This document shows positions 1-4,182 of a stretch of DNA of 21,141 bases, piece by piece. The notes under the pieces are model-generated. The model did not search any database, was not told where the DNA came from, and saw nothing but the letters and a program-made list of their open reading frames with translations. The translations under genes and the position numbers were made by a program. The DNA is taken from positions 1-21,141 of IMG/VR virus record IMGVR_UViG_3300021961_000756. One strand, 5' to 3'. The stretch's first letter is position 1. Every line of letters starts with the position of its first letter. This stretch comes from a virus.

Positions 1-1568
1 CCAGGATCTTTCTCAGTTACGGCAGTCTTTAGTTTAGAACCAGGATTCTCACGACGATAAGCATTAACTGCTTTCTGACTCATACCATCAGTTTTGTCTT
101 GCTTATTAACTTTCTGCCAATCCTCACTGAGTTCTTCTCTCCAGTTGGAGTATCCTTCCTTCACGCAGTTGGGAACCATTTTCCCACCCTTCTTTTTCAT
201 ACCAACTTGCTTATAACCATCCCAGCAAGGATCTTTTGCTTCTGGCAATTCAAATTCTGGCATCTCTTTTTTAAATGCCTGCTGTCCATACTTTTCTCCA
301 GCAGTTTTAACTGCTGCCCTCATTTTTTGTCTTGGGGATTTTGTTGCAGATGCTGGAATAGTATCTCCAACTTTATATTGACTACCTTCATTAACAAGTG
401 GTTCTGCTTTAATTAAATCAATAGTTTCAATTTCAAGTGCTTTGAAATCTTCTCTCCAGTTAGAATACTGGAAGCTCTCACTCTTAGTGCCCCAGTTAGC
501 AGCACCAACTTTACGACACTTGACTAATGCGCCAGATGCATATGCACTTGGCCAAACATCATATCTTGATCTTACCTTATGATAGCAAGCATCTTTCTTA
601 CCACTACCCTTTCCTTTTATATCTCTTGCTTCTTGCATTTCAAAACCCTCTGCAGAATAATCTCCTGACTTGTGCTTTTTGTAATCTTTCTTGTCTGTGA
701 AAGTTCTTACCATCGTTGGTGCAGCACCACCACTCTTTTGTTGTTGACCAGGATCTCTTCTACTCTTGCGTGCATCAGCACTTCTAATCTTCTTCTTACC
801 TTCTTCAGTCTTCTTCAGACCAGCAAGTCTTCTGGATGAATAGCACTTAGGTGTCTTTGTTTCTCCAGGCTCATTAGCACATGGAGACCCATCAGACTGC
901 ACCCAACCTGGTTTGCCATCTTTTGATTTTGACTTACCAAACCAGTTATGAAGAGTGCCACCTCTTTTCTTCTCATCAAGTAATTCACCTTCTACTTCAT
1001 ATGAATTGGCGAGAGGCAATTTTTTTTCTCCAGGTCTATCAAGCACCTGCTCAGGTTTTCCACCATACTTTGGATTATTCTTTAAAATCTGTCTGAGTGT
1101 ATTTGATGCTGTTGGTGTGCCAGGAACACCAACATTTTGCTCAGATACATCACCGCCTTCATCATGCTCACTATCCTTCATTAAATCACCACTACCCATT
1201 ACATGGTAACCCTTAGGGATTTTTTTACACTTTTCATCAGTTTTACACCTATACCTACCTTCACCACACTTCTTCTTTTCTTCCCCCATATAAGAAGCAG
1301 CAGCATCAGTGTTGTGCTCAGTATCAGTCAATTTTGCCTGCACCCATGCAGGAAGATTGTCCGCATCAGTTTTCTTTGCAAGAATTCTTGCTACTTTTTG
1401 AAGATTGTCAATAGACTTTTTAACTTGTGTCTTTGCCATTGACACTTCATGATCTTTTTCTTTTGCTTCGTTCATTTTCTTTTTACGACCTTGACAATGA
1501 GCACGCTGAGAAAACCCTTTTGGGTTGTCACAGTTAATCGACTTTTTATATTTCTCAGACCAACCCAT
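1..1568 (-). CDS. Modular Cys-containing phage protein, C-terminus beyond left edge
   Basis: An open frame without stops runs from the ATG at 1568 to the left edge (522 whole codons, no stop reached). I do not know its function. It is a chain of short blocks that I recall from uncharacterised marine-phage and large-virus proteins (DUF5872/DUF6321-like; names from memory). They are SINCDNPKGFSQRAHC (residues 10-25); a segment with LPAWVQAKLT and HNTDAAASYM (about 72-94); a Cys block with C101, C108, C114 and IPKGYHVMG; a basic block from LHNWFGKS to RDPGQQQKSGGAAP (about 204-285); a block with VWPSAYASGALVKC (about 326-361); DPCWDGYKQVG...VPNC (about 446-467); and a final block with DGMSQKAVNAYRRENPG. 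YSNWRE occurs twice, at residues 368 and 473. The protein is very rich in Lys. It starts 14 bp after gp16, where T4-like phages carry the large terminase gene 17, so it looks like an insertion into that order. It could be a virion-associated or DNA-binding protein; no catalytic motif is visible. Confidence 0.8.
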   Translation of the reverse strand, partial: MGWSEKYKKSINCDNPKGFSQRAHCQGRKKKMNEAKEKDHEVSMAKTQVKKSIDNLQKVARILAKKTDADNLPAWVQAKLTDTEHNTDAAASYMGEEKKKCGEGRYRCKTDEKCKKIPKGYHVMGSGDLMKDSEHDEGGDVSEQNVGVPGTPTASNTLRQILKNNPKYGGKPEQVLDRPGEKKLPLANSYEVEGELLDEKKRGGTLHNWFGKSKSKDGKPGWVQSDGSPCANEPGETKTPKCYSSRRLAGLKKTEEGKKKIRSADARKSRRDPGQQQKSGGAAPTMVRTFTDKKDYKKHKSGDYSAEGFEMQEARDIKGKGSGKKDACYHKVRSRYDVWPSAYASGALVKCRKVGAANWGTKSESFQYSNWREDFKALEIETIDLIKAEPLVNEGSQYKVGDTIPASATKSPRQKMRAAVKTAGEKYGQQAFKKEMPEFELPEAKDPCWDGYKQVGMKKKGGKMVPNCVKEGYSNWREELSEDWQKVNKQDKTDGMSQKAVNAYRRENPGSKLKTAVTEKDP

Positions 1569-1582
1569 TTTGAGGTTATAAA

Positions 1583-2002
1583 CTATTCCTTATTATTTAG
1601 AAAACCTTGCTTGAGTAGTTTCTGCAGCTCTGATGTAGACCCAACAAATACTGCATTGTTTGTAACAGTGTTTGGTCCTTTATTGACTACTTCTTCCTCT
1701 ACATCTTTGAGTTTTTTCTGCAAGTCAATCAACTTATCTGTCGTATCTGCAACACTTTTAATTAATTGACCTGCAACTTCATATGCTCTTGGACTTCCTC
1801 CTTCGCCAGCAAGTTCCATAATGCCATTAATTGCTTCCTGCCCCTTTTCAATTAATGAATACAAATTAGCTCTTGTGTATTCATAATCTTTCTTGATATC
1901 AGTCTTCTGCTCAGGTTTTTGAATGCTACCTGGAGCATCATCAACCTCAACAATACTACTCTCAACATTTAGAGCATTATCAATAGCATCAAATTCAGAC
2001 AT
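1583..2002 (-). CDS. gp16: Small terminase subunit gp16
   Basis: 139 residues, somewhat shorter than T4 gp16 (164). In T4 the small terminase forms a ring that recognises the DNA and stimulates the large subunit (gp17) during headful packaging. The match to T4 gp16 lies in the central and C-terminal parts: an acidic N-terminus, then DYEYTRANLYSLIEKGQEA, a helical stretch with GGSPRAYEVAGQLIKSVAD (T4: DSPRHMEVFATLMGQM), a coiled-coil-like LIDLQKKLKDVEEE, and a C-terminal NNAVFVGSTSELQKLL (T4: NATVFMGSPTELMDEI). It sits directly after gp15, as in T4. Its TAG stop lies 14 bp before the next start. No strong Shine-Dalgarno sequence precedes the ATG, so translation may be coupled to gp15, whose stop is 6 bp away. 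Confidence 0.9.
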   Translation of the reverse strand: MSEFDAIDNALNVESSIVEVDDAPGSIQKPEQKTDIKKDYEYTRANLYSLIEKGQEAINGIMELAGEGGSPRAYEVAGQLIKSVADTTDKLIDLQKKLKDVEEEVVNKGPNTVTNNAVFVGSTSELQKLLKQGFLNNKE

Positions 2003-2008
2003 AAGTTA

Positions 2009-2809
2009 TTAAATATCAGTTTGTTGTGTAGGACTATAAGACTTGGAATCTCCAAGATATTCCCAAGTCTCGCTAAATCCAAAGTCATCACCAGGATCTG
2101 CATCAACAGGATCTGGAACAACTGTGTATCTCATTTCCCTCTTAGCAGTAGTCCTATCAGTATCCGTATAATTATCAACGATAACTTTACGAATCAGACC
2201 TTCTGGATTATCTGCAATAGGACCAAAGAGATAAGTTTTTGCCGTAAACTGTAATCTATATATCAATGCTCTTCTGGTGGAGAAATCCCCTTCATAATCG
2301 TCTTGAAATGAGACGCTATTTAAGACGATTGGAATATCTCTTTTTTCTCCAATTGATTCGACTAAATCAACTGTTAAATTAAATGCTGGTTGAAAATTTG
2401 GAAGAATCTGCTCAACAATCTGCAGAGCATCATCATTCAACTTACATAAGATTGATAACTCAAATCCAATGTTATATGGAACAGGCATGAAAACTTTTTT
2501 CATCCTATCATTACCATCAACTGCTCTAAAAGTTTGGGTTACGCCAGCCTTTCTTGTTGAGTCATAATCAATTGATGTCATTTCAAATGACATTCTTGGT
2601 AATGTAATTTGCACAGGTTTATTCAAATCTGCCTGCTGCTCAAGTTTTGCCAGGAACTTTTGAGTAGGTCCATATGCCAATGGAACTCTCATGTCACTTA
2701 TTACTGCATCTGATCCATTTTTATGCTTGATATGAATATCATTAAAAAGAGTGCCAAAGGAAATAATCGTCTTTCTAATAATTTCGTGATAGTGATAAGT
2801 TCCTAACAT
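2009..2809 (-). CDS. gp15: Proximal tail sheath stabilisation protein gp15
   Basis: 266 residues, close to T4 gp15 (272). In T4, gp15 forms a hexameric ring at the head-proximal end of the tail; it stabilises the extended sheath and provides the surface that joins the neck (gp13/gp14). The N-terminus follows the family pattern: MLGTYHYHEIIRKTIISFG, then LFNDIHIKH and VPLAYGPTQKFLAKLEQQ (T4: LFSNIQIKR, VPITYASKEHFMMKL), ITLPRMSFEM and PVPYNIGFELSILCK. The C-terminal half has the ILPNFQPAFNLTV segment typical of sheath terminators. The ATG overlaps the gp14 stop by one base (TAATG), so the two genes are probably translationally coupled; no convincing ribosome binding site is seen. The position between gp14 and gp16 supports the call. 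Confidence 0.92.
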   Translation of the reverse strand: MLGTYHYHEIIRKTIISFGTLFNDIHIKHKNGSDAVISDMRVPLAYGPTQKFLAKLEQQADLNKPVQITLPRMSFEMTSIDYDSTRKAGVTQTFRAVDGNDRMKKVFMPVPYNIGFELSILCKLNDDALQIVEQILPNFQPAFNLTVDLVESIGEKRDIPIVLNSVSFQDDYEGDFSTRRALIYRLQFTAKTYLFGPIADNPEGLIRKVIVDNYTDTDRTTAKREMRYTVVPDPVDADPGDDFGFSETWEYLGDSKSYSPTQQTDI

Positions 2810-4182
2810 TAATAGCTACCAAAAGGATTTGATTCTGAAAAATCTAAAATTGAATCTGCAGCAAATTCAATTTCATCGTTCTGCTCATATTTATCAGTAG
2901 TTGTGTTTGCGGATGATACTCTAACAACATATGTTGCACCAGATTTAGCACCAACAATCAACTCACCTGGAGTAAAGTTACCAGTTATATTCGAAATTTG
3001 TAATGTATTAGCATCTTTATCCCATCTCTTGACCCTAGCAGTTGTGCTGGAAGCAGATCCTGTTATAACTTCATTTTTCCAGAATGTGCCAATGCCAGTT
3101 GTAGAAGCAGCACCGACTGTAATAGTTGGTGTAGATGTATATCCTTCTCCTGGATTTATTACATAGATATTTGATATTGTTCCAGCGGCACTAACAACAG
3201 CTCTTCCAATAGCAGTTGTTCCGGTGCCAGGAGCACCAACAGTAATGGAAGGTGCTGTTGAATATCCTGCACCACCACCAGGAACAGTAAAGGAAATGAC
3301 TCCATTAGATGCAGTGTTGATTCCACAAGTAGCAGCAGCTCCACTTCCTCCACCACCAGTAATTGTAATAGTTGGTGCTACCGTATAACCAGCACCAGCA
3401 TTTGTTAGAAGAATTTCTTTAATTGAAGTTATATTGTTTCTTGTGGTCGTTATTGCAACAGCGGTTGCATTTACTCCACCAGATGGTGCTGTAGAAATTG
3501 CAACAGTTGGAGTTCCAGTGTATCCTGATCCATCATCATTTAAAGTAATAGATCTTATATAACCACTATTAATAGTCGCTGAAGCATTTGCAGTTGTGCC
3601 ACCTGAAAATAGAGTAAGATCTACAATATATCCAGTCTGATCTAAAACATCACTAATTTCATCAACAGTAGTATCAATGACCTCATCTTCATATTCAAAG
3701 AGCTCACACTTTAATTCATAAACATAATTTTTGCCCAACTGGTAAAATGGTTGCTCATGCTCTACAAACTTTACCTCAAAAATTCTCTGACCCAATGGGA
3801 AGTAGATTAAATCACCTTCTCTTGGTCTAGTTGCTACTTCAATTTCATTATCATCCATAGCGTCAAGAAATGGAGCAATAAAATCTTCAAATCTTTCTTT
3901 TGAAATAGTTAATGATAACTCATCTCTGATACTTACACCAAATTTGGTCATAATATCTCCAGCACCACCATAACCATCGAAGTTATTAATATATGCTTCT
4001 AACAAGAAGTTATCATCAAAAGTAGAAGATTGTATTTCCTCAATAACAGTTTGTTTTCTTACAAACTTTCTTGGTATATAAGTTACCTCTACACCATAAA
4101 TTTTGAGTTGCTCATTAATCAACTCTTGTACAAGTCTTTGCTCTCCGTAAGAGCCTTGTAGAAAAAAGGGATTTAGTGCCAT
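2809..4182 (-). CDS. gp14: Neck protein gp14 with a large repeat insertion
   Basis: 457 residues against 256 for T4 gp14. The T4 neck protein works with gp13 to close the portal after packaging and to accept the tail. Residues 1-170 carry the family core: VEVTYIPRKFV, ELSLTISKERF, REGDLIYFP, RIFEVKFVEHEQPFYQLG, KCELFEYEDE. The short C-terminus (about 425-457, ending SESNPFGSY) resembles the T4 tail ending (SFEDSPFDNDF). Between them lies an insertion: four GxGY repeat units at residues about 206-365 (GSGY 218, GAGY 263, GAGY 304, GEGY 345, spaced 41-45), followed by a GE-SGA module (residues 368-422). The insert is rich in Gly, Thr, Ala and Ser and probably forms beta structure. The gene shares TAATG junctions with gp13 and gp15. 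The identity of the core is firm; the role of the insert is unknown. Confidence 0.92.
   Translation of the reverse strand: MALNPFFLQGSYGEQRLVQELINEQLKIYGVEVTYIPRKFVRKQTVIEEIQSSTFDDNFLLEAYINNFDGYGGAGDIMTKFGVSIRDELSLTISKERFEDFIAPFLDAMDDNEIEVATRPREGDLIYFPLGQRIFEVKFVEHEQPFYQLGKNYVYELKCELFEYEDEVIDTTVDEISDVLDQTGYIVDLTLFSGGTTANASATINSGYIRSITLNDDGSGYTGTPTVAISTAPSGGVNATAVAITTTRNNITSIKEILLTNAGAGYTVAPTITITGGGGSGAAATCGINTASNGVISFTVPGGGAGYSTAPSITVGAPGTGTTAIGRAVVSAAGTISNIYVINPGEGYTSTPTITVGAASTTGIGTFWKNEVITGSASSTTARVKRWDKDANTLQISNITGNFTPGELIVGAKSGATYVVRVSSANTTTDKYEQNDEIEFAADSILDFSESNPFGSY

Follow-up and report, generated by a model that had tools for sequence, protein, structure and literature searches.

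A modular open reading frame downstream of gp16

The window analysed here is an entire viral record of 21,141 bases and represents a genome fragment. T4-type virion genes lie on its minus strand in the order gp8, a large structural protein, gp13, gp14, gp15 and gp16, and these are followed, after a gap of 14 bases, by a modular frame. The modular frame opens with an ATG at 1566-1568, runs for 522 codons without interruption, and is still open at the left contig edge. A preliminary description of this DNA had reported an open frame of at least 522 codons after gp16, and we confirm it on the minus strand. The genes at this end of the window are:

3..1568, minus strand: modular protein of the T4-GC119 type, 522 codons within the contig and the 3' end beyond it; phrog_727, E=6.7e-70
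1583..2002, minus strand: gp16, terminase small subunit; PF11053, E=1e-8; phrog_445, E=9.8e-55
2009..2809, minus strand: gp15, tail sheath stabiliser; PF16724, E=1.3e-89

The modular protein is basic (pI 9.45) and carries 11 cysteines, at residues 13, 25, 101, 108, 114, 230, 242, 328, 351, 448 and 468. The cysteines listed previously were correct to within one residue, and the pair at 230 and 242 had been overlooked. The frame had also been described as something other than a terminase, which our searches bear out: Pfam, PHROGs and NCBIfam revealed no terminase family in the protein, and gp17 queries matched no ORF of the window. Elsewhere in the window, the gp14 neck protein (2809-4182, minus strand) bears a long Gly-rich repeat extension, at about residues 190-360, that resembles repeats of baseplate and tail-fibre proteins.

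The window protein matches phrog_727 in three stretches and the GC119 region of S-SM2 in four pieces, so that its homology to T4-GC119 extends across several modules. A translated search placed homologues in 371 phage records, nearly all of them named for Synechococcus, Prochlorococcus or "cyanophage"; for scale, gp15 of the window has matches in 377 Synechococcus and 61 "Cyanophage" records. Cultured Kyanoviridae encode the homologue between gp16 and gp17 (S-SM2, S-SM1, Syn19, ACG-2014f, S-SRM01, DSL-LC02 and S-SCSM1), and it is labelled T4-GC 119 in the records of S-SM2 (SSM2_109), S-SM1 (SSM1_115) and Syn19. P-SSM2 carries it between gp15 and gp16, and P-SSM4 at another place. Among the environmental loci, nearly every contig with enough sequence on that side has gp16 immediately upstream, and gp17 follows downstream, on the same strand, in all contigs of sufficient length. 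The window holds the gp16 side of this usual interval, the gp17 side lying past the contig end. What had been taken for an unusual insertion between gp16 and gp17 thus occupies an ordinary place, the one in which cultured relatives carry it, and its position is not novel. Family members (phrog_727; SSM2_109, SSM1_115, S-SCSM1 gp029) share the same modules and, in most genomes, the same interval, but differ from the window in module set and order. The window gene is an ordinary member of the widespread cyanomyovirus T4-GC119 family, which lacks an explained function. Our literature search found no paper on T4-GC 119 or on DUF6321, the Pfam domain of its last module, and no published mechanism for the family.

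Because the frame runs off the end of the fragment, it could be an artefact of chimeric assembly or of a frameshift at the contig edge, as the preliminary description had also considered. Four close relatives (L007-L010) show an identical succession of modules behind gp16, each in one frame, and such an artefact is therefore excluded in practice; we regard it as vanishingly improbable.

Seven module families and their cysteine pairs

We modelled seven module families and searched for them in all fetched loci. Every family recurs in dozens of relatives, which places the modular pattern far beyond chance. The protein had been described as a string of at least six short blocks; the modularity stands, with seven module families in place of six blocks:

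1476..1565, minus strand: M1 (GWSEKYKKSINC..PKGFSQRAHC), residues 2-31, Cys13 and Cys25; phmmer 2.3e-15
1284..1454, minus strand: M2 (DHEVSMA...AWVQ), residues 39-95, helical, no Cys; helices in the AlphaFold2 model
1167..1271, minus strand: M3 (CGEGRYRCKTDEKC), residues 100-134, Cys101/108/114
702..959, minus strand: M4 (GTLHNWFGKSKSKDGKPGWV..C..C), residues 204-289, Cys230/242; phmmer 2.4e-19
477..611, minus strand: M5 (KDACYHKVRSRYDVWPSAYASGALVKCRKVGAANWG), residues 320-364, Cys328/351; phmmer 2.3e-26
159..230, minus strand: M6 (CWDGYKQVGMKKKGGKMVPNC), residues 447-470, beta hairpin, Cys448/468; pLDDT 84
3..128, minus strand: M7, first half only (contig end); phmmer 3e-19

The order in the window is M1-M2-M3-M4-M5-M6-M7. 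Relatives show M3-M1-M2-M4-M5-M6-M7, M4-M1-M5-M2-M6-M7, M3-M4-M5-M6-M6-M7, M4-M5-M7 and others, and M7 is the final module wherever it is present. The complete M7 of relatives is Pfam DUF6321 (PF19846; E=9.1e-12 in L003 and 4.3e-23 in P-SSM2), a domain of unknown function; the window protein, which holds only the first half of M7, gives no DUF6321 match. M5 is present in 366 phage records. AlphaFold2 gave modules of modest confidence with disordered linkers between them and no confident overall fold: pLDDT was about 70-87 for M3, M5 and M6 (81-87 over residues 101-130 of M3) and below 50 in most linkers. No sequence relative of the protein was found in the PDB, and Foldseek matches to the model, whose mean pLDDT is 51.9, were short defensin hairpins with E above 3, which we set aside as meaningless. 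Pfam, PADLOC and PDB searches detected no enzymatic domain in the protein, and a search for anti-defence families found nothing.

The blocks had been said to occur singly in other marine-phage proteins, and single occurrence elsewhere proved to be the case for stand-alone M1 genes (see below) and for tiny M7 and M5 genes. In Roseobacter phage CRP-7, which is not T4-like, the C-terminal half of M7 (M7b) and M5 form the adjacent tiny genes gp65 and gp64 (L093:2940-3342), just upstream of the large terminase gene. In the T7-like Prochlorococcus phage P-SCSP1d, a small M7-like gene (L098:4866-5120) is situated between the major capsid and adaptor genes, and Vibrio and Pelagibacter phages also hold small M7-like genes.

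Distinct copies have exactly two cysteines in M1 (22/22, each with one His), M4 (65/65), M5 (50/50) and M6, three in M3, none in M2, and two or four in M7, where the two cysteines of the inner pair are each found, or missing, in an equal proportion of copies. One His is conserved in M1 and none above 60% in M4-M6. These counts bear on the proposal, made in the preliminary description, of a zinc-finger-like DNA-binding protein that serves the packaging motor. The protein is indeed basic and adjoins gp16, and T4 internal proteins touch DNA via lysines (PMC3012670). A zinc finger would, however, have four conserved Cys/His ligands per domain, and with two cysteines and at most one conserved His in each of M1, M4, M5 and M6, a zinc site within a module is unsupported. 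Nor is the place beside gp16 constant, as P-SSM2 and P-SSM4 illustrate, and we consider a role of this kind very improbable. Judged by the cysteine counts, the pairs would fit disulfides better than zinc.

Module-bearing relatives are found in virions

Relatives of the window protein are present in two virion proteomes. S-SCSM1 gp029 (M3-M4-M5-M6-M7) lies between terS and terL and is a "virion protein" in its GenBank record; the S-SCSM1 paper describes a mass-spectrometry virion proteome of 45 virion proteins. In S-CREM2, ORF136 and ORF137 are both of the genes between the terminase subunits, ORF137 carries M7, and ORF160 carries M4-M6-M5. The virion proteome of that phage contains ORF136 (8 peptides, 24.1%), ORF137 (4 peptides, 4.1%) and ORF160 (7 peptides, 13.1%), and both terminase subunits are missing from it (PMC10665884 Table 3). 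The module-bearing proteins of these two fully read genomes are thus virion proteins in 3/3 cases.

A further line of evidence comes from the genome records of Sullivan et al. (L004, L005, L096), in which GC119 carries the note "similar to Synechococcus phage S-SM1 protein". The genes gp16, gp17 and petE lack this note although S-SM1 has them. The corresponding paper reports 41 S-SM1 virion proteins, and because GC190, which is one of them, bears the same note, we infer it to be a label for S-SM1 virion proteins. The idea that the window protein is carried in the virion had been raised from its sequence; given the mass spectrometry of S-SCSM1 gp029 and of S-CREM2 ORF137 and ORF160, we consider it very probable.

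The N-terminus of S-CREM2 ORF160 (L088:18343-19236) copies the N-arm of the mature major capsid protein (GFTGAAAPEGPVAGYDPLM), with 18/24 residues identical to gp23 residues 61-84. This copy is possibly a capsid-binding mimic or element.

Candidate prohead-protease sites lie in the linkers

The recognition motif of T4 gp21 is L/I-X-E, with the cut after the Glu; in the T4 IPIII targeting sequence, an Asp in that last position has an inhibitory effect on processing (PMC9026906). The window protein contains 11 [LIVMF]xE motifs, nearly all of which fall in linkers, and at least one is found at each of the six module boundaries. They follow a hydrophobic-x-E pattern, only some being strictly L/I-x-E. 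The candidate sites, with a slash at the putative cut, are:

1464..1475, minus strand: MNE/A, M1/M2 boundary, after Glu34
1278..1289, minus strand: MGE/E, M2/M3 boundary, after Glu96
after Glu143, minus strand: VSE/Q, additional candidate upstream of M4
969..980, minus strand: LDE/K, precedes M4, after Glu199
627..638, minus strand: MQE/A, precedes M5, after Glu313
after Glu394 (VNE/G) and after Glu438, minus strand: additional candidates ahead of M6
237..248, minus strand: LPE/A, precedes M6, after Glu443
153..164, minus strand: VKE/G, M6/M7 boundary, after Glu471
120..131, minus strand: LSE/D, M7 start, after Glu482, preceded by SNWREE

When compared with the MKTYQEFIAE of ipII and ipIII, the SNWREE ahead of LSE/D partially resembles a T4 capsid-targeting sequence.

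In relatives, [LIVMF]xE was found in 199/224 distinct boundary contexts, against about 87 expected from shuffling. The motif [LIVM]xE[AG] was counted 210 times in 17,380 linker residues, vs 49.6 +- 6.8 in shuffles, whereas the count within module cores is 12 in 21,957 residues. Over 230 distinct linkers it was enriched 3.66-fold (z 19.9), and the Asp version, [LIVM]xD[AG], shows no enrichment there (0.90). These counts are not independent, as the linkers are related by descent, and part of the evidence is drawn from relatives at 40-80% identity. Read backwards, as [AG]Ex[LIVM], the motif is likewise raised 2.5-fold, since both forms are embedded in a linker phrase that recurs, EGE[VLI]..E; part of the enrichment is therefore shared linker sequence. 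At M3 boundaries the strict [AG] form occurs in 0/10 cases. Taken over all S-CREM2 genes, the motif occurs about as often as expected (131 vs 114; non-virion genes, 52 vs 52.0). Motif z-scores computed for every S-CREM2 protein do not set the module proteins apart (ORF137, z 1.3; ORF160, z 2.1), because few modules occur there; it is the test at module boundaries that is informative. Both S-CREM2 and S-SCSM1 have an annotated gp21 homologue, and another is found on the contig of the relative L030 (E=3e-80).

Alternatively, the gene could encode an uncut structural protein of the head or neck, in which small modules that adhere or bind scaffold, strung on flexible linkers, form a multivalent tether in assembly. 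The Glu motifs would then be linker sequence with no protease role, as the enrichment of the reversed motif allows. The presence of relatives in virions and the long disordered linkers of the AlphaFold2 model would also be expected of such a tether, for which the N-arm copy of ORF160 might provide a capsid-binding element. It would not explain, however, why the boundaries strongly prefer Glu over Asp and have Ala or Gly next, nor why modules occur as separate genes behind targeting sequences, and we hold it to be rather unlikely.

Linker phrases of the type SYEVEGELLDE or SFEPEGEVIDE precede several module types, as at residues 190-199 of the window protein, and could serve as a more extended signal for processing or core binding.

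Genes beside the family begin with targeting-like sequences

In the T4 record, ipII and ipIII start MKTYQEFIAE/A. At 45 loci, a gene adjoining GC119, almost always the next one, starts MKSFQQFLSE/SITINGDFNG or a close variant; these genes have about 100 codons, or fewer where the contig ends inside them. The stand-alone M1 gene of L066 starts MKTFKQFQE/SWSNKYKKS (MKTFKQFQE/SWSNKYKKSIDC). Those of L077 and L082 have a start of the same type, with D after the Glu, and the cultured isolate Bellamy has a full-length match, gene 122. The window protein itself starts MGWSEKYKKSINC, which is not a capsid targeting sequence.

Tail-fibre-like genes occupy the same gp16-gp17 interval in some relatives, and invariant Cys pairs would suit disulfides in an extracellular particle. 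Both facts could be reconciled with a tail-associated or surface protein whose disulfide-stabilised modules act on the host envelope. The adjoining targeting-sequence genes and the gp21-type sites point instead to the head, as do the positions of the free modules, next to terL in CRP-7 and between the capsid and adaptor genes in P-SCSP1d. A tail or surface role is accordingly improbable.

A possible head-internal polyprotein

The explanation that we prefer, and judge about evenly balanced between right and wrong, is that the GC119 protein is a polyprotein inside the head, which gp21 cuts up into mini-proteins. The protein would be made late and taken into the prohead core, where a gp21-type prohead protease would cut the linkers after hydrophobic-x-Glu. 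Cutting would yield mini-proteins some 30-115 residues long, the majority of them basic and most with one Cys pair. These would remain associated with the DNA and perhaps enter the host by ejection, as T4 internal proteins do. The modularity, module shuffling, virion presence of relatives, adjoining targeting starts and boundary motif enrichment are observations; the location inside the head, the cutting, the ejection and any host function of each module are inferred. The free tiny genes of CRP-7, the gp21 homologue of L030 and the AlphaFold2 picture of modules on disordered linkers also count in favour of a polyprotein. The window protein probably resides inside the head; whether it is cut at its linkers could go either way, and delivery of the protein or its modules to the host is somewhat doubtful. 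The enrichment of the reversed motif, the M3 boundaries without the strict form and the lack of an N-terminal targeting sequence on the window protein all speak against a polyprotein. The preliminary description had overlooked both the linkers that resemble protease sites and the capsid-targeting surroundings, and these give a more specific mechanism than the one it offered. As a reading of the GC119 gene the polyprotein appears to be new, the gene itself being common in cyanobacterial viruses.

The GC119 protein resembles T4 IPI, IPII and IPIII with their capsid targeting sequences and gp21: like them it would be basic virion cargo with hydrophobic-x-Glu sites, and in relatives of the window the adjoining gene opens with a targeting sequence of the T4 type and M1 can stand behind one. 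T4 internal proteins, however, are single domains with one N-terminal propeptide, whereas GC119 has many modules per chain and, in the window, no N-terminal targeting sequence. One T4 internal protein inhibits a host restriction enzyme (PMC3012670), and these proteins would be the natural analogy for a host role of the modules. The polyvalent proteins of phages and plasmids (PMC5512222) likewise have many domains per chain and are predicted to be injected with DNA, but their domains are mainly enzymatic, and some include their own peptidase, in contrast to the tiny Cys-pair modules of GC119, which are devoid of enzymatic motifs. The inner-body and ejection proteins of phiKZ and SPN3US are head proteins cut after Glu by the prohead protease, often at several sites (PMC9026906); those cuts remove propeptides, and release of many separate domains is not described in the literature consulted. 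GC119-type proteins occur in most T4-like cyanophages, which are among the most abundant viruses of the sea, and have hitherto been without a function; if they are indeed polyproteins, they would show how a phage can deliver many small proteins from one gene.

Targeting starts on virion enzymes

The strict start pattern is rare by chance, with about 0.04 matches per genome when N-termini are shuffled. Five S-CREM2 genes carry it, and 5/5 encode virion proteins (Fisher p=5e-4): the SAM hydrolase, the APH-like kinase, the cytidylyltransferase, ORF13 and ORF136. In numerical order these five genes are gp6, gp13, gp14, gp136 and gp154 (L089, L087, L088). In S-SCSM1 it is found on the virion enzyme NMNAT (L103:38819-40048) and on gp030. 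The latter is not labelled a virion protein and counts against the polyprotein reading, and in S-SCSM1 alone the link between targeting start and virion protein is not significant (1/2, p=0.30).

Starts of the form MKxFxxFLxE may explain how NMNAT/cytidylyltransferase, SAM hydrolase and kinase enter cyanophage virions. The S-CREM2 authors, like those of S-SCSM1, left open whether their virion-associated enzymes are cargo or contamination; the pattern of starts favours cargo and offers a sequence rule with which to predict cyanophage head cargo. Our literature search found no paper that names capsid targeting sequences in cyanophages. We tentatively suggest a combined picture in which a cargo polyprotein of Cys-pair mini-proteins is cut by the prohead protease in the head and ejected into the cyanobacterium, while the same phages load NMNAT/cytidylyltransferase, SAM hydrolase and kinase by means of T4-type targeting sequences.

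Two other proteins bear similar sequences. P-SSM4 GC190 (L096:4391-5542) has a T4-like capsid targeting start (MKxFxxFLxE), and S-SCSM1 gp279 (L103:41626-41835) is a 69-residue virion protein that ends in KRTFKEFLEYIE, a C-terminus whose sequence looks like a capsid targeting sequence.
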